Shown here one piece after another: positions 6,221-44,580 of a stretch of 44,580 nt of DNA. This DNA is from Actinomycetes bacterium (GTDB lineage: Bacteria; Actinomycetota; UBA4738), in NCBI GenBank assembly GCA_021784765.1, contig JAJYHN010000139.1, positions 1-44,580 on the forward strand. Direction: 5' to 3'. How positions within the stretch are numbered: position 1 is the stretch's first letter; the number at the start of each line of letters is the position of its first letter. Below the pieces are notes generated by a model. The model made no database searches. It saw nothing but the letters and a program-made list of their open reading frames with translations, and had not been told where the DNA came from. Made by a program: the position numbers and the translations under genes.

Positions 6221-6536
6221 GGCGGACGGCGCGGCGGGGCTGGAGCCGGGGCCGGTGCCGGCGCGCCCGGTGCGTGCCAAGCGCGCGTCCCGGGCCTCGC
6301 TCCGGCTCTGGACGGCGGTTGCCGGGGCGGTCGGCTTCGCGCTCCCGTTCGCCGCGTTCCGGGTGGCGCCGCGACCTCCGGCGCCGGCGGCCGCGCAGCA
6401 GGTCGTCGTGCTGCCGGCCGGAAGCAAGCTCGTGAGCTCCGGCAGCGGCGTGAAGGTCGTGGCCGCGTCCGGCGGGGCCGCCACGGCCGGAACACCGGTC
6501 ACGACGACCGGTGGCTCGGCACCTCCCCCTCCGTGA
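6213..6536 (+). CDS. Small membrane-anchored protein with low-complexity tail (107 aa)
   Basis: ATG overlaps the stop of the 56-aa ORF; one hydrophobic helix (LRLWTAVAGAVGFALPFAAF); 3' end overlaps convergent cimA (6499-6536). Confidence 0.5.
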   Translation: MTRADGAAGLEPGPVPARPVRAKRASRASLRLWTAVAGAVGFALPFAAFRVAPRPPAPAAAQQVVVLPAGSKLVSSGSGVKVVAASGGAATAGTPVTTTGGSAPPPP

Positions 6537-8130
6537 CGGTGGCCGTGCGGCGGCGCAGCAGGCCGTACGTGTAGCTCTCGGCGAGCGCCTCGTAGGAGGC
6601 CTGGATGATGTCCTCCGAGACCCCGACCGTGACCCACTCGGCGTCCCCGTCGCTCGTCTCGATCAGCACGCGCACGACGGCGCCGGTGCCCTTGGTCCCG
6701 TCCAGCACGCGGACCCGGTAGTCCGTCAGCTCCATCCGGGCGAGCTCCGGGTAGGTCCGTCCGAGCGCCTGGCGCAGCGCGTTGTCGAGCGCCCCGACCG
6801 GCCCGTGGCCCTCGGCGGTCGCGATGTGCCGCTCCCCGTCGGCGACCACCTTCACCGTGGCCTCGGCGAGCCCCTCGCCGCCCTCGCGCTCCTCGACCAG
6901 GACCCGGAAGGACTCCACGCTGAAGAACTCCTGTCGCCAGCCGGCCCCGCGCCGCAGCAGCAGCTCCAGCGAGGCGTCGGCGGCCTCGAAGGCGTAGCCG
7001 GCCGCCTCGCGCTCCTTCAGCGAGGTCAGGACGCGGCCGACCGCATCGTCGTCCAGCCCCACCCCGAGCTCGGCGGCCTTGCGAACGAGGTTCGCCCGAC
7101 CGGCGAGGTCGGAGACCACGATATGGTTGCTGTTGCCGACGGACGCGGGCGGGACGTGCTCGTAGGCGTCGGCGCGACGGACGACGGCCGAGACGTGCAG
7201 GCCCGCCTTGTGCGCGAAGGCGTTCCGGCCGGCGTAGGGCTGGTGCGGGTCCGGCGGGATGTTGGCGATCTCGGCGACCCGGTGGGCGAGCTCGGTCAGC
7301 CGCGCGACGCCGTCGCCGGGGAGGACCTCGTAGCCGAGCTTCAGGGAGAGATTCGCCGCGATCGGGATGAGGTCGGCGTTCCCGCAGCGCTCGCCATAGC
7401 CGTTGATCGTCCCCTGGACCTGCAGCGCGCCGGCGCGGACCGCCTCGACCGAGCCGGCCACCGCGCAGCCGGTGTCGTCGTGCACGTGGACGCCGAGCGG
7501 GACCGCGGCCAGCCTGCCGACCTCGCGGACGACCTCGGCCACATCGCCCGGCAGCGACCCGCCGTTCGTGTCGCAGAGCACCAGCCGCTCGGCCCCGGCC
7601 TCCTCGGCCGCGCGCAGCACGGCGAGGGCGTAGTCCCGGTTGCGCCGCCACCCGTCGAAGAAGTGCTCGGCGTCGAAGAACACCCGGCGCCCCTCCGCTC
7701 GCAGGAACGCGATCGAATCGGCGACCATCGCGAGGTTCTCCTCGAGGGTCGTGCGGATGGCCTCGGTGACGTGGAGGTCGGAGGACTTGCCGACCAGGCA
7801 CACGACCTCGGTCCCCGCCTCGAGCATGTCGCGGAGGACGGGGGAGGCGCCGGCCCGCTCGCCAGGGCGGCGCGTCATGCCGAACGCGGCGAGCTGCGAG
7901 CGCGTCAGCGGCTCGCGGACCGCGAGGCGAAAGAACTCGGTGTCGCGCGGGTTCGCCCCCGGCCAGCCGCCCTCGACCAGCGGCATGCCGAGGTCGTCGA
8001 GGGCATGGAGCACCTTCAGCTTGTCCTCGACGCTGAACGAGAGCCCGGCTCGCTGCGCGCCGTCGCGCAGCGTCGTGTCGTACAGCTCGACGGCCGGCGC
8101 CGCCGCAGGGCCCGTCCCCGGCTCAGGCAT
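6499..8130 (-). CDS. cimA: (R)-citramalate synthase
   Basis: VELYDTTLRDGAQRAGLSFSVEDKLKVLHALDDLGMPLVEGGWPGANPRDTEFF; HVHDDTGCAVA; C-terminal regulatory domain VRVLDGTKGTGAVVRVLIETSDG. Lies in leu/ilv operon. Confidence 0.9.
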   Translation of the reverse strand: MPEPGTGPAAAPAVELYDTTLRDGAQRAGLSFSVEDKLKVLHALDDLGMPLVEGGWPGANPRDTEFFRLAVREPLTRSQLAAFGMTRRPGERAGASPVLRDMLEAGTEVVCLVGKSSDLHVTEAIRTTLEENLAMVADSIAFLRAEGRRVFFDAEHFFDGWRRNRDYALAVLRAAEEAGAERLVLCDTNGGSLPGDVAEVVREVGRLAAVPLGVHVHDDTGCAVAGSVEAVRAGALQVQGTINGYGERCGNADLIPIAANLSLKLGYEVLPGDGVARLTELAHRVAEIANIPPDPHQPYAGRNAFAHKAGLHVSAVVRRADAYEHVPPASVGNSNHIVVSDLAGRANLVRKAAELGVGLDDDAVGRVLTSLKEREAAGYAFEAADASLELLLRRGAGWRQEFFSVESFRVLVEEREGGEGLAEATVKVVADGERHIATAEGHGPVGALDNALRQALGRTYPELARMELTDYRVRVLDGTKGTGAVVRVLIETSDGDAEWVTVGVSEDIIQASYEALAESYTYGLLRRRTATVTEGEVPSHRSS

Positions 8131-9217
8131 CGACGGCTCCCTCCGTGACGAGGTCGCCGACCTCGGCCGTCGAGAACCCCATCTCCGCGGCCCGCATCGA
8201 GCGCATCTTCGAGACGGCCCGCCGGATGCCGGCGTCCACCCGGGCGGCGGCGGCGTCCTCGCCCAGGGATCGCAGCATCAGCTCGCCGGCCGCGATCGCC
8301 GCGATCGGGTTGATCGTGCCCCTGCCGGTGTGGTCGGGGGCCGTCCCGCCGATCGGCTCGAACATCGACACCCCGCCGGGGTCGGGGTTCAGGTTCGCCC
8401 CGGCCGCCACGCCCATGCCTCCCTGCACCGTGGCCGCGAGGTCGGTCAGGATGTCGCCGAACATGTTGTCGGTGACGACCACGTCGAACCGGCCCGGGTT
8501 CTCCAGCAGGTAGATGCACGCGGCGTCGACGTGGACGTAGGCGGTGCCGATGCCCGGATGCTCGGCCGCCACCTCGTCGAAGACCCGCTGCCACAGGTCG
8601 CCGGCGTAGGTGAGTACGTTGGTCTTGTGCGCGAGCGTCACGTGACCGCGCCGGCCCGGGCGCGTCGCGAGGTCGAACGCGAACCGCACGCAGCGCTCGA
8701 CCCCCCGTCGCGTGTTGACGCTGTCCTGCAGCGCGACCTCCTGCGGGGTTCCCCTGCGGAAGAACCCGCCGGTGCCCGCGTACAGCCCCTCGGAGTTCTC
8801 GCGGACGAAGGCCATGTCGACGTCCTCCGGCGCGAGGCCGCCGACCGGCGAGCGCACGCCCGGGTAGAGCCTGACCGGCCGCAGGTTGACGTACTGGTCC
8901 AGCTCGAAGCGCAGCCGCAGCAGCAGGTCGCGCTCGAGGATGCCCGGCTTGATCTGCGGGTGCCCGACGGCGCCCAGGTAGATCGCATCGGCGTCCCGCA
9001 GCTCCTCGAGCGCCGGGTCGGGCAGCGTCTCGCCGGTGCGCAGATAGCGCTCGCCGCCGAGGTCGTGCTCGACGGTCTGCAGCTCGAACCCCTCGGCGGC
9101 CGCGACGGCCCGCAGCACCTTCAGGCCCTCGCGGATCACCTCGGGGCCGGTGCCGTCGCCGGGGATGACCGCGATCCGGTGCCGGCGAAGGGCGCCCTCC
9201 GATCCGCCGCCGCTCAA
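8123..9217 (-). CDS. leuB: 3-isopropylmalate dehydrogenase
   Basis: HRIAVIPGDGTGPEVIREGLKVLRAV...GAVGHPQIKPGILERDLLLRLRFELDQYVNLRPVRLYPGV...DNMFGDILTDLAA; proposed TTG start overlapping leuD TGA (TTGA). Confidence 0.92.
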   Translation of the reverse strand: MSGGGSEGALRRHRIAVIPGDGTGPEVIREGLKVLRAVAAAEGFELQTVEHDLGGERYLRTGETLPDPALEELRDADAIYLGAVGHPQIKPGILERDLLLRLRFELDQYVNLRPVRLYPGVRSPVGGLAPEDVDMAFVRENSEGLYAGTGGFFRRGTPQEVALQDSVNTRRGVERCVRFAFDLATRPGRRGHVTLAHKTNVLTYAGDLWQRVFDEVAAEHPGIGTAYVHVDAACIYLLENPGRFDVVVTDNMFGDILTDLAATVQGGMGVAAGANLNPDPGGVSMFEPIGGTAPDHTGRGTINPIAAIAAGELMLRSLGEDAAAARVDAGIRRAVSKMRSMRAAEMGFSTAEVGDLVTEGAVDA

Positions 9218-9795
9218 TCGAGCCTCCAGTCGGCCTGCGGGGGCTCCCCCTCCGGCACGCCGACCGCGACGCCGGGGGTCCCGGACGACCCACTCGCGCC
9301 GCCTGTCTTCGTGCGCCGCGCCACCCATGGCATGAGCCCGCCGGCATCGAGGATCTCCTGCATGAATGGCGGCAGGGGGGTCGCGGCGAAGCGCTTGCCC
9401 CTCGTCACGTTCTCGACGATGCCCTCGTCGAGGTCGACCCGGAACACGTCGCCGGTCGCGGCGTCCTCGGTGACCCCCGGGCACTCGACGATCGGCAGGC
9501 CGACGTTCACCGCGTTTCGGAAGAAGATCCGTGCGAACGACTCGGCGACGATCACCGAGATGCCCGACCCCTTGATCGCGAGGGGCGCGTGCTCGCGCGA
9601 GGATCCGCTGCCGAAGTTCCGCCCCCCGACCATGACGTCGCCCGGCCGCACGCGGGAGACGAACTCGGCGTCCAGGTCCTCCATGCAGTGCCTGGCGAGC
9701 TCCTCGGCCTCGGTGGAGGTGAGGTAGCGCGCGGGGATGATCACGTCGGTGTCGACGTTGTCCCCGTAGACGTGCCCGATCGCCTCGACGATCAT
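9214..9795 (-). CDS. leuD: 3-isopropylmalate dehydratase small subunit
   Basis: YGDNVDTDVIIPARYL...GGRNFGSGSSREHAPLAIKGSGISVIVAESFARIFFRNAVNVGLPIVE; ATG overlaps leuC TGA. Confidence 0.93.
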   Translation of the reverse strand: MIVEAIGHVYGDNVDTDVIIPARYLTSTEAEELARHCMEDLDAEFVSRVRPGDVMVGGRNFGSGSSREHAPLAIKGSGISVIVAESFARIFFRNAVNVGLPIVECPGVTEDAATGDVFRVDLDEGIVENVTRGKRFAATPLPPFMQEILDAGGLMPWVARRTKTGGASGSSGTPGVAVGVPEGEPPQADWRLD

Positions 9796-11165
9796 CGGGC
9801 CGCACCCCCCTCCGCGACCGCGGTGCCGGCCGCCACCAGCGGGGCGCCGGGCCCCCTGCTCATCAGCGCCATGTCCGGCGGCTCGACGCCGACCTCGTCG
9901 GGGTGGGCGAGGCGCCCGAGGACGGCGGTGGCGGCCGCCACCGCCGGGCTCGCCAGGAACACCTTGGCCTCGCGGTGGCCCATGCGGCCGACGTAGTTGC
10001 GGTTCGACGTCGAGACGCAGACCTCGCCAGGCCCGAGCACCCCCATGTGGCCGCCGAGGCACGCGCCGCACGTCGGGGTCGACACCGTGGCGCCGGCCGC
10101 CGCGAAGATCTGCAGCAGGCCCTCCTCGTTCGCCTGCTTCCAGATCTCCTGGGTCGCGGGGATCACCATCAGCCGAACGCGCGGGTCGGCCGTGCGCCCG
10201 CGCAGGATGTGGGCGGCGATCCGCAGGTCCTCGATCTTGGCGTTCGTGCACGAGCCGATGAAGACCTGGTCGACCGCCACCCTCTCGGCCTGCGACACGG
10301 GCTCGGCCTTCGAGGGCAGCGAGGGCAGCGAGACCTGCGGCTCGAGGGCCGAGACGTCGATCGTGTGCGTGGCCGCGTACTCGGCGTCGGGGTCGCTGGC
10401 GTCGACGGGGAACTCCCGGACGCGGCCGGTCGCCGCCTGGCGCGCACGGACGTAGTCGAGCGTCACCTCGTCCGGCGCGATGATGCCGGACTTCGCGCCC
10501 GCCTCGATCGCCATGTTCGCCAGCGTGAACCGCGAGTCCTGCGACAGGTGGGCGAGCGCCGGGCCCGTGTGCTCCATGGCCTGGTAGGCGCAGCCGTCGT
10601 CGCCGACCTGGCCGATCACCGAGAGGATCAGGTCCTTGCCGATGACCCAGGGGCCGGGCCGGCCCTCGTAGACGAACCTCACCGACTCGGGAACCCGCAG
10701 CCAGATCTCGCCGGTTGCGAACACGGCCGCGAGGTCGGTCGAGCCGACCCCGGTCGAGAACGCGCCGACCGCGCCGTAGGTGCACGAGTGCGAGTCGGCG
10801 CCGATGATCACCATGCCCGGCAGGGCCAGGGCCTCCTGCGGGAGCAGGATGTGCTCGATGCCTCCGCGGCCGAGCTCGAAGAAGTGCTCGATGCCCTGCT
10901 CGCGGGCGAACCCGCGCATCGACATCATGAGGCCCGCGCTCGCGATGTCCTTGGCCGGGACGAAGTGGGAGGGGACCAGCGCGATCTTCGACGGGTCCCA
11001 CACCCGCTCGACGCCGAGCTCCTTGAAGCGCTTGATCGAGACCGGCGCGGTCACGTCGTTGCCCATCGCGAGGTCGACCCTGACCATGACGAGGTCGCCG
11101 GGCCGGACGGACTCGTGGCCGGCCGCGCGGGCCAGGACCTTCTCGGTGATCGTCATTCCCGGCAT
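9792..11165 (-). CDS. leuC: 3-isopropylmalate dehydratase large subunit
   Basis: MTITEKVLARAAG...GADSHSCTYGAVGAFSTGVGSTDLAAVFATGEIW; FIGSCTNAKIEDLRIAAHILRGR; CGACLGGHMGVLGPGEVCVSTSNRNYVGRMG. Confidence 0.94.
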   Translation of the reverse strand: MPGMTITEKVLARAAGHESVRPGDLVMVRVDLAMGNDVTAPVSIKRFKELGVERVWDPSKIALVPSHFVPAKDIASAGLMMSMRGFAREQGIEHFFELGRGGIEHILLPQEALALPGMVIIGADSHSCTYGAVGAFSTGVGSTDLAAVFATGEIWLRVPESVRFVYEGRPGPWVIGKDLILSVIGQVGDDGCAYQAMEHTGPALAHLSQDSRFTLANMAIEAGAKSGIIAPDEVTLDYVRARQAATGRVREFPVDASDPDAEYAATHTIDVSALEPQVSLPSLPSKAEPVSQAERVAVDQVFIGSCTNAKIEDLRIAAHILRGRTADPRVRLMVIPATQEIWKQANEEGLLQIFAAAGATVSTPTCGACLGGHMGVLGPGEVCVSTSNRNYVGRMGHREAKVFLASPAVAAATAVLGRLAHPDEVGVEPPDMALMSRGPGAPLVAAGTAVAEGGAAR

Positions 11166-12701
11166 CTACGCCGACACCTCCTCGGTGCTCGTGACCGCAA
11201 GCGCCCGGTTGATGGCGGCGAGGTAGGCGCGGGCGCTCGCCTCCACGACGTCGGGGGCGAGCCCCCGCCCGGTCACCAGCCGGCCGCCGACCTCGAGCTG
11301 GACGACGACGTCGCCGAGCGCGTCGCTCCCACCGGTCACGGCCGACACGTTGTAGGAGACCAGCGTGGCCGCGACGGCGGTGGCCCGGCCGATCGCGCCG
11401 TAGGCGGCGTCGATCATGCCGTCGCCCATCGCCGAGTCCTCGACGGTCTCCTCGCCCCGGCGCAGCCGCACGGTGGCGGTCGGGGAGAGGTGGGTCCCGC
11501 CTGCGACGGCCAGCGACTCCATGACGAACGCCTCGCCGACACCGGCGCCGAGCTCCTCGGCGGCGATCGCCTCGAGGTCGGCGTCGGTCAGCGAGATCTT
11601 GCGGTCGGCGAGGTCCTTGAACCTTGCGAACGCGCGATCGAGGGCGTCGGGCTCGAGCCGGACGCCGAGCCCGGCCAGGGCATCGGCGAACGCGTGCCGG
11701 CCCGAGTGCTTGCCGAGCACGATCTTCGACCCCTCGTAGCCGATGGCCGTCGGGTCCATGATCTCGTAGGTCGCGCGGTTCATCAGGACGCCGTGCTGGT
11801 GGATGCCGGACTCGTGGGCGAACGCGTTGGCGCCGACCACGGCCTTGTTCGGCTGCACCGGGTAGCCGGTGAGCTTGGAGACCAGCCGCGAGGTCCGGGC
11901 GATCTCCTTGACATGCAGGCCGTGCGCGAGGCCGGTCGCCTGCCCGCGCGTCGCGACGATCATCGCGAGCTCCTCCAGCGAGCAGTTCCCGGCGCGCTCG
12001 CCGATGCCGTTCACCGCGACCTCGACCTGCCGCGCGCCGGCCAGCACGCCGGCGAGCGAGTTCGCGACGGCGAGGCCGAGGTCGTTGTGGCAGTGGACCG
12101 AGATCGTCACGTGCTCGGGCATCGCCTCACGCGCCGCCCGCACCAGCTCGGCGAACTCGTGCGGCAGCGCGTAGCCGACCGTGTCGGGGACGTTCAGGGT
12201 CGTGGCGCCCTCCTCGACGGCGGCGTGGAACGCCTCCAGCATGAACTCCGGATCGGTGCGGGTCGCGTCCTGCGCGCTGTACTCGACGTCCTCGGTGTAG
12301 CCGCGGGCGCGCCGCACGGCCCGCCGCGTCGCCTCCAGGACGTCCTCGCGCGACATCCGAAGCATCGAGTCCATGTGGATGTCGCTGGTCGAGATGAACA
12401 CGTGCAGGCGCCCATGCTGCGCGTCGCGGATGGCCTCCCATGCGCGGTCGACGTCGCCGTCGCTCGCGCGGCAGAGGGCGGCGATCACCGGGCCCTTCAC
12501 GTTCCGGGCGATGCGCCGGACGGCCTCGAACTCGCCGGCCGACGAGGCCGGGAACCCGGCCTCCAGCACGTCGACCCCGAGGCGCGCGAGCTGCTCGGCG
12601 ATCTCGAGCTTCTCGGCCTCGGCCAGCGCGATGCCGGGCGCCTGCTCGCCGTCGCGCAACGTGGTGTCGAAGATGCGTACGTGGTCAGGCACCGGAGGCA
12701 C
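11166..12701 (-). CDS. leuA: 2-isopropylmalate synthase
   Basis: [99 protein letters not shown]. Confidence 0.94.
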
Positions 12702-13710
12702 CCCCCTCCGGCGCGCCGCGGCGTCCGAGCCACGGCATCATCGAGCGGAGCCGGGCCCCGACCTCCTCGATCTGGTGCTCGCGCCCCCGGCGGCGCAGCG
12801 CCTCGAACCGCGGGAACCCGGCCTTGGCCTCGAGCACCCACTCGTTCGCGAACTGGCCGGTCTGGATCTCCGACAGGATCCGGCGCATCTCGGCGCGGAC
12901 GTGATCGTCGACCACCCGCGGCCCGCGCGTGTAGTCGCCGTACTCGGCGGTGTCCGAGACCGAGTAGCGCATGCCCCCGAGCCCGCCCTCGTACAGCAGG
13001 TCGACGATCAGCTTCAGCTCGTGCAGGCATTCGAAGTAGGCGATCTCGGGCTGGTAGCCGGCCTCGACCAGCGTCTCGAACCCGGCCTGGACCAGCGCGG
13101 CCGTCCCGCCGCAGAGCACGGCCTGCTCGCCGAACAGGTCGGTCTCGGTCTCCTCGCGAAACGTCGTCTCGAGGATCCCCGCCCGTCCGGCGCCGATGCC
13201 GCTCGCGTAGGCGAGCGTGCGGGCGCGCGCGGTGCCGGTCGCGTCCGTGTGCACCGCGAAGAGCGACGGCGTGCCGGCGCCCTCGGCGTAGGTGCGCCGG
13301 ACCAGGTGCCCGGGGCCCTTCGGCGCGACCATCGCGACGTCGACGCCCTCGGCCGGGCGGACCTGGTTGAAGTGGATGTTGAAGCCGTGGGCGAACATCA
13401 GCATGTCGCCCGGCGCGAGGTTCGGCGCGACGTCGGCCTCGTAGACGGACGGCTGCGTCGTGTCGGGCAGCAGCATCATCACGACCTCGGCCTCGCCGGC
13501 GGCCGCGGCGGTCGGGAGGACCCGCACCCCGTCCTCCTCGGCCGTGGACCACGACTTCGAGTCGCGGCGAAGGCCGACCCGGACGTCCACGCCCGAGTCC
13601 CGCAGGTTCAGCGCGTGCGCGTGGCCCTGGCTGCCGTAGCCGAGCACGGCGACGCGCTGGCCCTCCAGCGCAGACCGGTCGATGTCCCTGTCGTAGAGCA
13701 CGCTGCCCAT
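12685..13710 (-). CDS. ilvC: Ketol-acid reductoisomerase
   Basis: [84 protein letters not shown]. Confidence 0.95.
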
Positions 13711-13782
13711 TCGGTCTCCTTCGTCGTCGGTGGTGGGGTGGGTGGCGGGCGCCGAGCCGCACGGCGGCGCCCCGGCCGGGGC

Positions 13783-14316
13783 TCAGGCGGTCGCGGGCTC
13801 CTTCGCCGCACGCAGGCGGTCGCGGTCCCGGATCCCGCGCTCGCCGCGGCCGAGCGCGATGCGGCCGGTGCGGACCATCTCGACCAGGCCGTAGGGCTCG
13901 AGCAGCTCGCAGAGCGCGTCGATCTTCGCCGACGGGCCGCTCACCTCGATCGTGACCGTCGCCTGGGCGACGTCCACGATGCGGCCGCGGAAGATCTCCA
14001 CGAGCTCGACGACCTGGAACCGCTGCTCGGGCTTGGTGCGGACCTTCACCAGGGCGAGCTCGCGCTCGACCGAGGCGGTCTCGCCGAGCTCCACGACCTT
14101 GATCACGTGGATCAGCTTGTTGAGCTGCTTGGTGACCTGCTCGAGCGGCTTGGTCGTGACCTCGACGACGATGGTCATCCGCGAGAGCCCTGGACGTTCG
14201 GTCGTGCCGACGGCGAGCGAGTGGATGTTGAACCCGCGGCGCGCGAACAGGCTCGAGACCTGGGTCAGCACGCCGGGCTGGTCCTCGACCAGGACGGAGA
14301 TCGTGTGCAGGCTCAT
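13783..14316 (-). CDS. ilvN: Acetolactate synthase small (regulatory) subunit
   Basis: [52 protein letters not shown] (ACT domain); ATG overlaps ilvB stop. Confidence 0.94.
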
Positions 14317-16073
14317 GCGACCGGTGCCTCCGCGGGATCGTTCACGGGCCGAACGCCCTCGGGCCCGAGGATGATGTCGTCGTTCGAGGCGCCGGCCGGC
14401 ACCATCGGGAACACGTTCTCCGACGGGTCGACCCGGAAGTCGATCACGACCGTCCGGTCGGTGATCGACATCGCCTTGTCGAGCACCGCGTCGACGTCGC
14501 CGGGGTCCTCGGCTCGCAGCCCGACGGCCCCCATCGCCTCGGCGAGCTTGACGAAGTCCGGCGTGTCCTGGGTGAGGTGCACCTGCGAGTAGCGTTCGCC
14601 GTAGAACAGCTCCTGCCACTGGCGGACCATGCCGAGGTAGCCGTTGTTCAGGATCGCGACGGTGATCGGGATGCTCTCGGTGGCGCTGGTCGCGAGCTCC
14701 TGCGCCGTCATCTGGAAGCAGCCGTCGCCGTCGATCGCCACCACTCGCTGGTCGGGTCGGCCGACCTTCGCGCCGAGCGCCGCCGGAACGGCGAACCCCA
14801 TGGTCCCGAGCCCGCCGGAGTTGATCCACTGCCGGGGCCGCGTGAACCGGTAGAACTGCGAGGCCCACATCTGGTGCTGGCCGACGCCCGAGACGATCGT
14901 CGCCTCGCCCCTCGTCGCCTCGTAGATCCGCTCGACGACGAACTGCGGCTTGATCGGGCCGCCGTCCTCCTGCCGGTAGCGCAGCGGGAACCGCTCCTGC
15001 CAGTCGCGCAGGGTCCCGAGCCACGCCGAGTGGTCGGGCCGGCCTCGCTCCTCCTGGAGCTTTGCCAGCTCGCGCGCCAGGGCCGCCGTCACGTCCCTGG
15101 CGTCGCCGACGATCGGGACGTCGACGGACCGGTTCTTGCCGATCTCGGCCGGGTCGATGTCCACGTGGATCACCTTCGCGCCCGGCGCGAACCCCGCGAG
15201 GTTGCCGGTGACCCGGTCGTCGAAACGCACCCCGATCGCGATCAGCAGGTCGGCCCGCTGCATGGCGGTCACGGCCGTGTAGTTGCCGTGCATGCCGGGC
15301 ATCCCGAGCCCGAGCGGGTGGGTGTCGGGGAACACGCCACGGCCCATCAGGGTCGTGACCACCGGCAGGTCGCCCGTCTCCGCGAGCCTGCGGAGCTCGT
15401 CCGAGGCGTCGGAGCGCACGATGCCGCCGCCGACGTAGAGCACCGGACGCTCCGCGCGGAGGATCAGGTCGACCGCGGCCTTCACCTGCTTCATGCTGCC
15501 CCTGGTCGTCGGCCGGTAGCCGGGCAGGTCGACCGACTCCTGCCACTCGAAGCGCATGTCGGAGATCAGGACGTCCTTCGGCAGGTCGATCAGCACCGGC
15601 CCGGGCCGCCCGGTCGAGGCGACGTGGAACGCCTCGCGGACGACCCGCGGGACGTCGTTCGCGTCGGTCACCATCCAGGTCTGCTTGGTGATCGGCATCG
15701 CGATGCCGGTCATGTACGCCTCCTGAAAGGCGTCGTTGCCGACGACGGCGGTCGCCACCTGCCCGGTGATGGCCACGAGCGGGATCGAGTCCATCATCGC
15801 GTCGGCGAGGGGCGTGACCAGGTTGCAGCCGCCGGGGCCGGAGGTCGCCATGGCGACGCCGACGCGGCCGGTGGCGTGCGCGTATCCCTCGGCCGCGTGG
15901 CCGGCGCCCTGCTCGTGGCGGGTCAGGACGTGGCGGATCGACGACTCGAGCAACGGGTCGTAGGCGGGGAGGATGGCCCCGCCGGGGATCCCGAACACGG
16001 TGTCGACGCCCTCGAGCTCGAGGGCGCGAAACAGCGCCTGCGCGCCGGTGAGCTTCTCTCCGCCCCTGGCCAT
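14313..16073 (-). CDS. ilvB: Acetolactate synthase large subunit
   Basis: [100 protein letters not shown] motif [20 protein letters not shown]. Confidence 0.95.
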
Positions 16074-16077
16074 GGTC

Positions 16078-16377
16078 CTAGCTCGCCCCCCGTCCGGCCT
16101 CCACGGCCTCGCTCGGCGTCCGCCGTGCCCGGTAGCCGCGGCCCTCCAGCGCGTGGCAGGCGCGCTCGAACTCCCACGGCGTCCAGTCCCGCCGACGCTG
16201 CTGGAACGCCTCGTCGTCCTCGTCGAACGCCGTGGCCAGGTAGGTCACCTCGCTCGCGAACCAGTCCTGCAGGAACGCCCGCTCTCGGGTGTCGGACACG
16301 TCCAGCCGCACCTGACCGGGTCCCTCCCACTGGGCGGACCCCACGGATCGCCCGCCGCGATCGAACTCGAAGCGCAT
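16078..16377 (-). CDS. Conserved-looking small protein at head of ilv operon (99 aa)
   Basis: [88 protein letters not shown]...; 4 nt before ilvB start; ATG at 16377 preferred over ORF-track start at 16419 (Arg-rich extension). Confidence 0.6.
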
Positions 16378-16487: not shown

Positions 16488-16516
16488 AAAAAACCCCTGG
16501 CGGATGCCAAGGGTTT
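16488..16516 (-). terminator. Intrinsic terminator of ilv operon attenuator
   Basis: Minus strand AAACCCTTGGC-ATCC-GCCAGGGGTTTTTTG: 11-bp stem (one G.U), 4-nt loop, T6 tract; located between leader peptide and first operon gene. Confidence 0.85.
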
Positions 16517-16517
16517 C

Positions 16518-16552
16518 GGCGCGGTCAGGGCGTGCGACGCCCCGCCCGCGCC
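16518..16552 (-). promoter_or_regulatory. Attenuator hairpin starting at leader-peptide stop codon
   Basis: Minus strand GGCGCGG-GC-GGGGCGT-CGC-ACGCCCT-GA-CCGCGCC: 14 bp in two helices around a 2x2 internal loop. Confidence 0.75.
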
Positions 16553-16608
16553 TAGGTAATAAGGACGAGGACCAGGAGAGAAGCCAGAACTACCTGGTTG
16601 CCACTCAT
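16552..16608 (-). CDS. BCAA attenuator leader peptide (18 aa): MSGNQVVLASLLVLVLIT
   Basis: Minus strand ATG AGT GGC AAC CAG GTA GTT CTG GCT TCT CTC CTG GTC CTC GTC CTT ATT ACC TAG; 10 of 18 residues are V/L/I; followed by hairpin and terminator upstream of ilvB operon. Not in ORF track (too short). Confidence 0.9.
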   Translation of the reverse strand: MSGNQVVLASLLVLVLIT

Positions 16609-16617
16609 GTGGCAGCT

Positions 16618-16646
16618 ATGCTACGGGTCGCGCCACGATCGGTCAA
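16618..16646 (-). promoter_or_regulatory. Promoter of ilv/leu superoperon
   Basis: Minus strand TTGACC (16646-16641), 17-bp spacer, TAGCAT (16623-16618); leader ATG begins 10 nt past the -10. Confidence 0.78.
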
Positions 16647-19023: not shown

Positions 19024-20694
19024 TCAGTCGCAGACGGCGCCGCGGCTCGCGGAGCTCACGAGCCTCGCGTACTTCGCCAGGGCGCCGCGCTCGTAGCGAG
19101 GGGCCGGGGCCTTCCACCCCTCGCGCCGGCGGGCGAGCTCGGCGTCGTCGACCTCGATGTCCAGGCGCCGGGCGTCGACGTCGAGCGAGATCGCGTCGCC
19201 CTCGTGCACGAGCGCGATCGGTCCGCCGACGACCGCCTCGGGCGCCACGTGGGCGATAGAGAAGCCGTGGGTCGCGCCGCTGAACCGTCCGTCGGTCACG
19301 AGCATCACGTCGCGGCCGAGCCCGGCACCGAACACCGCGGCGGTCACGGCCAGCATCTCGGGCATGCCGGGCGCCCCCTTCGGGCCCTCGTTCCGGATCA
19401 CGATCACGTCGCCGCGCTCGATCCGCCCGCCGGTCACCGCCTCGAACGCGTCCTGCTCGGAGTCGAACACCCGGGCGCGCCCGCGGAAGCTCAGGCCCTC
19501 CATGCCGACGACCTTCGCGACGGCGCCCTCCGGGGCGAGGGAGCCGCGCAGGATCGCCATGCCGCCGTAGGGGTGGATGGGCTCGGCCATCGGCCGGACG
19601 ACGTCGCCGTCGGGCCCGCCCGGCGAGAGTGCCGCGAGGTTCTCCGCCACGGTCCTGCCGCTGACGGTCAGCGCGTCGCCGTGCAGCAGCCCCGCGTCCA
19701 GCAGCTCCCTCATCAGCACCGGCACGCCGCCGACCCGGTCGAGGTCGGCCATGACGAACCGCCCGGCCGGGCGCAGGTCGCCGATGTGCGGGGTGCGCCG
19801 GCTGATGCGGTCGAAGTCGTCGATGTCGAGGTCGACCTCGGCCTCGTGCGCGATCGCGAGCAGGTGCAGCACGGCGTTCGTCGAGCCGCCGCAGGCCATC
19901 ACCAGCGTGATCGCGTTCTCGAAGGCCTCGCGGGTCATGATCTGGCGGGGCCGGATGCCGGCGCGCAGCAGGTCCACGACCGCGGCGCCGGATGCGCGCG
20001 CGAACGCGTCGCGACGCGCGTCGACCGCCGGCGGCGAGGCGCTCCCCGGCAGCGACATCCCGAGCCCCTCGGCCGCGACGGCCATCGTGTTCGCCGTGTA
20101 CATGCCGGCGCACGAGCCGGGCCCGGGACAGGCGTGCGCCTCGACGTCGTGCAGCTCGCCGTCGCTCATGGTCCCGGCGGCGTTCGCGCCGACGGCCTCG
20201 AACACGTCCTGGATCGTGAGGTCCCTGCCCCGGAGGTGCCCGGGAAGGATCGTGCCGCCGTACAGGAACACCCCCGGCAGGTTCAGCCGGGCGGTGGCCA
20301 TCAGCATGCCCGGCAGGCTCTTGTCGCAGCCGGCGATCGTCACCACGCCGTCGAACCGCTCGGCGTGCATGACCAGCTCGACGGCATCGGCGATGTTCTC
20401 GCGACTGACCAGCGAGGCCCGCATGCCGACGGTGCCCATCGCGATCCCGTCCGAGACGGCGATCGTCGTGAACTCGACCGGGACGGCGGCGCCGGTCTCG
20501 CGCACGCCCTCCTTGGCGACCGCGGCCAGGCGGTCGAGGTGGATGTTGCAGGGCGTCACTTCGTTCCACGCGGAGGCGACGCCGACCTGGGCCTTGGCGA
20601 AGTCCCCGTCCCCGAACCCGACCGCGCGCAGCATCGCCCGCGCCGGCGCGCGCTCGGTGACGTCGGTGCTGCGGGGCCGCATCGGGTCGCTCAT
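19024..20694 (-). CDS. ilvD: Dihydroxy-acid dehydratase
   Basis: [100 protein letters not shown]. Confidence 0.95.
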
Positions 20695-43560: not shown

Positions 43561-44580
43561 TCACATCACGCCGAGGCCCCCGAGGCTCGCCATCAGGTCG
43601 CTCCGGGCGTCCGGGTCGCAGACGGCGTCGATCACGGCCGGCCGGCCCTCCGCCGCGGCCGCCGCGGCCCGCTCGAGGGCGCCGTGCACCTCGTCGTGCG
43701 CGGTCACGCGCTCGCCGTGGCCGCCGGCGGCCTCGGCCAGCAGGTCGTAGCGCATGGCCGAGGCGGCGGCCGTCTCGGCGCGGCCGGCGCCCGGATGGGC
43801 GTGCTCGTGGACGTCCCCCCACCCGCCGTTGTTCACGACGACGACGACGATCCCGAGCCGACCCCTCGCCGCGGTGTCCAGCTCCATCGCCGACATGCCG
43901 AACGCCCCGTCGCCGGTGAACAGGAACACCGGCTCGTCCGGGCGCGCCGCCTTCGCCGCGACCGCGAACGGCAGCCCGATGCCGAGCGTCCCCATGGCCG
44001 AGCCGATGAACAGGTTCGTCCCCGGCCGGTGGGCCCTCGAGAATGCGAGGCCCCACACCACGCTGTCGCCGCCGTCGGAGACGAACGTCCCCGGCCCGAG
44101 CCCGTCGGCGAAGCGCGCCACCTCGCGCGCCAGCCACCCCGGGTGGATCCCGTTCGCCGGCCGCTCGCACTGCGCGTCCCAGGTGGACAGGCTCGCGGCG
44201 GCGGCCTGCCGCGTCTCGTCTGCCCAGCCGCCGAACGCGTCGGGCTCGCCGGGCCAGGCCTCCGTCAGCGCCTCGAGCGTCGCCGCCACGTCGCCGGCGA
44301 GGGCGATCTCGGGCCGGCGCAGGCCGCCGAGGTGCTCGGGACGCACGTCGACCTGGATGATGGTTTGCCCGGGCGGGAACAGCGGCGGCCCGCCGTAGAG
44401 CGTGTTCGCGTTGAACGCCGACCCCAGCACCAGCGCCACGTCCGCGGAGGCCAGCGCGACGCCGCCGTGCACGAGGCCGCCGGCGCATCGAGGGTGGTCG
44501 TCGTCGAGGAGCCCGCGCGCGGCCGATGTCGTGGTCACCGGGATCCCGGTCAGCTCGGCGAACGCCCGCAGCGCGGGGCC
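43561..44580 (-). CDS. Acetolactate-synthase-like thiamine pyrophosphate enzyme (N-terminus beyond window)
   Basis: DVALVLGSAFNANTLYGGPPLFPPGQTIIQVDV; TFVSDGGDSVVWG; AMGTLGIGLPFAVAAKAARPDEPVFLFTGDGAFGMSAMELDTAARGRLGIVVVVVNNGGWG; frame open to window end. Confidence 0.9.
   Translation of the reverse strand, partial: GPALRAFAELTGIPVTTTSAARGLLDDDHPRCAGGLVHGGVALASADVALVLGSAFNANTLYGGPPLFPPGQTIIQVDVRPEHLGGLRRPEIALAGDVAATLEALTEAWPGEPDAFGGWADETRQAAAASLSTWDAQCERPANGIHPGWLAREVARFADGLGPGTFVSDGGDSVVWGLAFSRAHRPGTNLFIGSAMGTLGIGLPFAVAAKAARPDEPVFLFTGDGAFGMSAMELDTAARGRLGIVVVVVNNGGWGDVHEHAHPGAGRAETAAASAMRYDLLAEAAGGHGERVTAHDEVHGALERAAAAAAEGRPAVIDAVCDPDARSDLMASLGGLGVM

Follow-up and report, generated by a model that had tools for sequence, protein, structure and literature searches.

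Known leader-peptide attenuators and the present locus

Leader peptides followed by terminators upstream of ilvB were described for Actinobacteria in 2005 (PMC1262725) and 2023 (PMC10272879). In Mycobacterium tuberculosis, ilvB1NC is preceded by an upstream ORF (uORF) with branched-chain amino acid (BCAA) codons, among them a regulatory GUA, and by a strong terminator, and control is proposed to depend on the position of the ribosome, regulatory codons versus stop codon (PMC13236596). Substitution of LVVI with AAAA abolishes induction in this system, and the terminated RNA of ~120 nt is abundant. An exclusive antiterminator was also proposed, and the uORF ends with UGA (PMC13236596). The ilvB-II motif of Corynebacterium comprises a BCAA uORF and two hairpins before ilvBNC, the second being the terminator; reporter activity was high in minimal but low in rich medium (PMC10272879). 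In this motif, P1 spans the uORF, and pairing between the P1 loop and the 3' shoulder of the terminator has been proposed. The Streptomyces ilvB leader MRTRILVLGKRVG, whose class is described in PMC1262725, carries a hairpin directly 5' of the terminator, and its ORF runs into this hairpin (KRVG, UGA stop). Changes of the regulatory codons in S. coelicolor ilvB are reported to have been without effect (cited in PMC1262725). Leu-run leader peptides also precede leuA and leuS (LEU element and leuS attenuators), and the LEU element is described as a pseudoknot in which the Leu run pairs with the leuA Shine-Dalgarno sequence (PMC1262725).

The leu and trp attenuators of E. coli have cognate leader codons, which are rare in leu, followed by an intrinsic terminator. 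In such classical attenuators, an upstream segment pairs with the 5' arm of the terminator before the 3' arm is made.

BCAA leader-peptide attenuation is thus already known from Corynebacterium, Mycobacterium, and Streptomyces, where its mechanism is disputed, and the first-pass annotation of our DNA rightly treated the class as established. The window analysed here is a stretch of 44,580 nucleotides from an uncultured member of the Actinomycetota. On its minus strand, a leader of this kind precedes an ilv-leu operon, and we consider it very probably a ribosome-mediated transcription attenuator of that operon. It resembles the M. tuberculosis leader in its BCAA uORF, its terminator, and the predicted attenuated RNA, but its hairpin 1 has the G of a UAG stop as first base and no exclusive pairing was found. 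Its relatives share the CTC GTA CTT core with the Streptomyces leader, the window itself having CTC GTC CTT. Related leaders before leuA and leuS have a stop-anchored hairpin and a terminator, unlike the LEU element. As far as the searched open-access literature shows, what is new is the UAG-anchored layout as a candidate shared platform and the apparent absence of the expected antiterminator.

Architecture and distribution of the leader

The leader covers positions 16488-16646 (Table 1). The promoter proposed in the first-pass annotation, TTGACC and TAGCAT with a spacer of 17 bp, is present on the minus strand (16646-16618), and neither strand has another promoter-like match between 5900 and 16700. 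Orthologous leaders have TTGACA at the -35 position. The -10 hexamer is located 9 nt 5' of the ATG, and the same spacing was seen in the same-order orthologues, whose leaders were read by hand. Because of this spacing, the start site is placed ~0-4 nt 5' of the ATG, and the leader mRNA of the window is probably leaderless.

The leader ORF encodes the 18-residue peptide MSGNQVVLASLLVLVLIT. Exactly as described before, ten of its 18 codons specify Val, Leu, or Ile (GTA GTT CTG CTC CTG GTC CTC GTC CTT ATT). Its tail, CTC GTC CTT ATT ACC TAG, aligns with CTC GTA CTT ATY NNN TAG in the orthologues, where GCGCG follows. Hairpin 1 was found at the stop codon as proposed, with 15 instead of 14 bp when the G of UAG is counted, and the terminator with its T6 tract has a stem of 12 instead of 11 bp (16490-16517) when A-U pairs with the T tract are included. 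The leader folds with -60.9 kcal/mol, compared with -42.8 ± 3.7 kcal/mol for 200 dinucleotide shuffles, none of which was as stable (z = -4.9). A simple terminator scanner did not pick up the leader terminator, presumably because the stem uses part of the T tract. This intrinsic terminator lies between the leader ORF and the first gene. The window gave no match at gathering score to the Rfam 15 families, T-box and ppGpp riboswitch included; 11 leader loci had no match up to E = 1, and 10 further loci gave three weak unrelated matches, all below gathering.

Table 1 Features of the leader and the genes downstream, with positions in the window
Feature	Position	Strand	Basis	Remarks
-35 hexamer	16641..16646	-	promoter scan	TTGACC
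-10 hexamer	16618..16623	-	promoter scan	TAGCAT
Leader peptide ORF	16552..16608	-		18 aa; ATG at 16608, UAG at 16554-16552
Hairpin 1	16518..16552	-	fold	15 bp; G of UAG is its first base
Intrinsic terminator	16488..16517	-	fold, conservation	T6 tract; no gap to hairpin 1
orfX	16078..16377	-		99-aa conserved protein; first gene 3' of the attenuator
ilvB	14313..16073	-	Pfam	acetolactate synthase large subunit
ilvN	13783..14316	-	position after ilvB and sequence reading alone	acetolactate synthase small subunit
ilvC	12685..13710	-	Pfam KARI_N/KARI_C	
leuA	11166..12701	-	Pfam HMGL-like and LeuA_dimer	
leuC	9792..11165	-	Pfam Aconitase	
leuD	9214..9795	-	position after leuC and sequence reading alone	
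leuB	8123..9232	-	Pfam Iso_dh	start provisional; stop position read from sequence
cimA-like	6499..8130	-	Pfam HMGL-like and LeuA_dimer	citramalate synthase; 3'-most gene of the apparent operon

Nine genes follow the leader in the order orfX-ilvB-ilvN-ilvC-leuA-leuC-leuD-leuB-cimA. No promoter or terminator match was found within them (6499-16377), which agrees with the earlier proposal that a BCAA leader peptide and a terminator precede an ilv/leu operon of at least nine genes. Short leader ORFs are missed by gene finders, and such operons are therefore easily annotated as unregulated.

The first gene, orfX, is kept in the window's order and, at 30-50% identity, in one further family (f5); W17, P20, and RRD at 62-64 are invariant. 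It gave no Pfam or NCBIfam match, and its structure model (mean pLDDT 73) had no PDB match with E <= 0.001. In another genome, a leader ending in VLLIT is followed by orfX and then by a prephenate dehydratase-like gene in place of ilvB. Upstream of the operon, ilvD is a separate gene (19024-20694, minus strand), and the window end (43579-44571, minus strand) encodes another ilvB-like thiamine-diphosphate enzyme, a distant one with 31% identity. Eighteen tRNA genes were matched in the window's genome, which is 84% complete; those seen include Leu GAG, CAG, and CAA, Val CAC, and Ile GAU.

Conservation upstream of orthologous ilvB genes had been suggested as a check, and it supports the leader. 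A model-free scan upstream of ilvB, which looked for short I/L/V-rich ORFs with a stable fold and then a T run behind them, found the same element at the same relative place both within the order of the window and in further families. As counterparts thus occur in other genomes, the element is more than a chance arrangement. The window's relatives are uncultured Actinomycetota. Of 398 genomes of the phylum, 52 were matched by covariance model R1 and 100 by R2; as the window sequence is part of both models, the E-values that they give for it are not independent. Orthologous leaders precede ilvB across the Actinomycetota. As a Streptomyces-type genome carries MRTRILVLGKRVG with ATT CTC GTA CTT, we regard the leader family as phylum-wide. 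As in the known actinobacterial ilvB leaders, the short ORF upstream of ilvB in the window contains a BCAA core of the LVL/LVV type and has a terminator 3' of it.

The layout is common to 116 distinct leaders. TAG is the stop codon in 112/116, found with models that favour TAG, and in 21/22 of the model-free matches. Hairpin 1 is anchored on the G of UAG in 57/59 leaders (103/116 in the larger set), and the gap between hairpin 1 and the terminator is 0-5 nt in 59/59. Both stems vary across orthologues with compensating changes, and the BCAA codons are kept; in the control pairing of the terminator 5' arm with its 3' arm (term5 x term3), the observed value was reached by 0/2000 permutations. 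The upstream part of the peptide is not conserved. At the level of sequence comparison, the putative uORF, the gene-matched codons described below, both hairpins, and their fixed geometry are thereby established. The anchoring rule, the probable leaderless start, the unusual codons, and the occurrence of the layout before leuA, leuS, cimA, and a leuB-like gene go beyond the first-pass annotation.

Folding at different ribosome positions and the search for an antiterminator

We computed the folding of the leader with a ribosome at successive positions, hiding the RNA up to 13 nt past the start of the A-site codon. In the window, hairpin 1 is predicted to form with a probability of 0.97 when the A site is at codon -4 or earlier, 0.84 at codon -3, and 0.02 at the stop. 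In silico, therefore, the structure responds to where the ribosome is and differs between a stalled ribosome and one at the stop. Because the BCAA codons are placed close to the stop and hairpin 1 is anchored on UAG, we interpret hairpin 1 as sensing whether translation of the ORF has been completed.

The terminator, in contrast, is predicted at equilibrium with a probability of 0.98 at every ribosome position. This speaks against an attenuator. The equilibrium values of the E. coli controls trpL and leuL are also flat (0.94-0.97), and since this quantity does not discriminate, we used a truncated-transcript test, in which each transcript was folded as cut just 5' of the terminator 3' arm, with trpL and leuL of E. 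coli K-12 as positive controls. The terminator 5' arm of trpL and leuL was sequestered to 0.62 and 0.46, respectively, at the stall and to 0.00 at the stop. For the 116 leaders, the values were 0.07 at codon -5, 0.02 at codon -4, and 0.35 at the stop. Hence, the 5' arm is, if anything, less sequestered at the stall than at the stop, opposite to what E. coli trp and leu show. None of the 116 leaders exceeded 0.5 in computed sequestering when the ribosome was stalled with its A site at codon -5.

We also compared the complementarity of leader regions with their own and with other leaders' partners. Both known stems gave a strong signal, and nothing convincing appeared in twelve other pairings. 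By eye, the BCAA codons had seemed a promising partner for the terminator 3' arm. When the last eight leader codons were compared by permutation with their own and with other leaders' 3' arms, they paired slightly better with their own, a weak result (p = 0.022, uncorrected, one of 12, phylogeny ignored), and we rejected this candidate.

A classical trp-type attenuator, in which a 2:3 antiterminator exists through non-canonical pairs, a pseudoknot, or sequence outside the tested region, is unlikely in the light of these results. General precedent, the antiterminator proposed for M. tuberculosis ilvB1, the shoulder-loop pairing proposed for Corynebacterium ilvB-II, and the slight preference for the own 3' arm argue for it. 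The lack of sequestering in all 116 leaders, compared with trpL and leuL in the same computation, and the failure of every other inter-region pairing to exceed permutation argue against it. The base-paired antiterminator of the textbook model thus appears to be absent from the predicted folds of the 116 leaders. Hence, of the "complete" attenuator claimed in the first-pass annotation, the leader peptide and both hairpins stand, but an antiterminator that pairs with the terminator was not detected, whereas those of trpL and leuL were. The regulatory codons of the two E. coli leaders are also further from the stop. Because a competing antiterminator is missing from the computed structures, we state that the leader likely works like a trp-type attenuator and do not assign it to that class. 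The ribosome-mediated attenuator that we favour raises the question of how a stop-anchored hairpin beside a terminator prevents termination.

Codon content of the leaders and the proposed mechanism

To relate leader codons to the genes that follow, we identified the gene behind each leader by its similarity to proteins of the window or of a small panel, and counted I, L, and V in the last six leader codons. Leaders before leuA (n = 15) contain L58 V2 I1, those before leuS (n = 5) L14 V0 I0, those before cimA (n = 11) I36 L2 V2, those before a leuB-like gene (n = 11) V13 I23 L1, and those before ilvB (n = 69) L122 V140 I50. We scored Leu as matching leuA and leuS, Ile as matching cimA, Val with Ile as matching the leuB-like gene, and Leu with Val (and Ile) as matching ilvB. 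With these rules, which were drawn up after the groups had been seen, the terminal codons fit the downstream gene in 110/111 leaders; with shuffled gene labels, the mean was 59 and the maximum 74 in 2000 rounds. In 59/69 ilvB leaders, the final I/L/V codon is the second before the stop. In a phylum-wide comparison, leader codons thus go with the gene that follows them in five gene classes, and the attenuator class extends to uncultured deep lineages.

Codon choice is unusual as well. In 46 loci, we compared the last seven leader codons with ilvB of the same locus, with usage taken from operon genes. I/L/V codons ending in A or T make up 105/220 in the leaders and 250/4642 in ilvB, and the leader is higher in 45/46 loci. 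GTA accounts for 40/79 leader Val codons but only 21/1902 in ilvB. In the window, 4/10 I/L/V leader codons end in A or T, compared with 1.6% (p = 1.3e-5). As CTA, TTA, and ATA are unused in these ilvB leaders and CTG and GTG are avoided, the choice is specific and not simply one of rare codons. E. coli leu also has rare regulatory codons, and the simple rare-codon explanation has been called an oversimplification (PMC1183508).

The match between codons and genes bears on the other explanations. A real but codon-independent terminator, with a leader that works mainly by hairpin-induced pausing or ribosome-polymerase coupling and responds to the general rate of translation rather than to BCAA, is quite improbable. 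It would accord with the absence of a detected base-pairing switch and with the codon changes in S. coelicolor, as cited in PMC1262725. However, a general response predicts no relation between the codons and the product of the downstream gene, such as holds over the five gene classes, and the LVVI substitution abolishes induction in M. tuberculosis (PMC13236596). Arrest of the nascent peptide at UAG as in TnaC, with a terminal LVLI-x motif that would detect a free amino acid within the exit tunnel, is more improbable still: conserved residues do lie directly 5' of a nearly invariant UAG, and they are conserved within each gene class, but they differ between classes (LLLL, IIII, VII, LVLI), the unusual synonymous codons are conserved, and the upstream peptide is not. 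An RNA element or protein-binding site made up of the conserved nucleotides CTCGTACTTAT, with an incidental ORF, is equally hard to credit. Near-identical wobble nucleotides in several families would allow it, but in front of other genes in-frame runs of Leu, Ile, or Val-Ile codons take the place of this element, and the distance of the core from the stop varies in steps of whole codons.

Attenuation by the supply of aminoacyl-tRNA for Leu, Val, and Ile is well supported as a reading of the sequences, and it is the best-supported one because of the codon-gene match together with the M. tuberculosis ilvB1 experiments (PMC13236596). The S. coelicolor codon changes, in the form in which PMC1262725 cites them, speak against it. 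In the mechanism we propose, RNA polymerase would start 0-4 nt 5' of the ATG and a ribosome would initiate on the leaderless uORF. With ample charged tRNA-Leu, tRNA-Val, and tRNA-Ile, the ribosome should reach UAG and cover the first ~10 nt of hairpin 1. Hairpin 1 would then be melted, the terminator would close, and transcription would stop after ~120 nt. When one of these tRNAs is scarce, the ribosome should stall on the rare codons a few positions before UAG. Hairpin 1 would remain folded, and we infer that the polymerase would read through into orfX-ilvBNC-leuACDB-cimA.

As to how termination could be prevented, we tentatively suggest that the folded hairpin 1, flush with the terminator (0-5 nt), may keep the basal pairs of the terminator from closing in the RNA exit channel. 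The Streptomyces-type leaders, in which a hairpin likewise abuts the terminator, are consistent with this step. It is possible, though somewhat doubtful, that the layout serves the Actinomycetota as a general attenuator platform for several amino-acid genes, with a steric switch in place of base-pair exchange. If so, a hairpin welded to the stop would block the terminator when folded and be removed by the ribosome at UAG, and a change of the terminal codons alone would retarget the device to Leu, Ile, Val with Ile, or all three.

No earlier account of Ile leaders before cimA or of Val-Ile leaders before the leuB-like gene turned up in the open-access papers searched. All 11 leaders before the leuB-like gene have Val-Ile codons with almost no Leu, and in one of these loci, the gene is followed by an aminotransferase gene like ilvE. 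The leader codons and this neighbour suggest that the leuB-like enzyme belongs to the isoleucine (citramalate) route and not to leucine synthesis. Six loci of Streptomyces-type genomes carry a conserved Ile leader before cimA, ATG ATT ATT GGC AGC AGG CGC GCC, whose ORF extends beyond its codon run, like that of the ilvB leader of these genomes.

A stop-anchored hairpin with a terminator also precedes the isocitrate lyase gene aceA in six genomes of the window's order (seven loci, two of them in one genome). The leader peptides end in FVAIA, FVGSH, KVSGS, FVGSA, or FVSSA, or in SVSAS with a TAA stop. The only codon common to all is GTA at the fourth position before the stop, and GTA holds the same place in the ilvB leaders.
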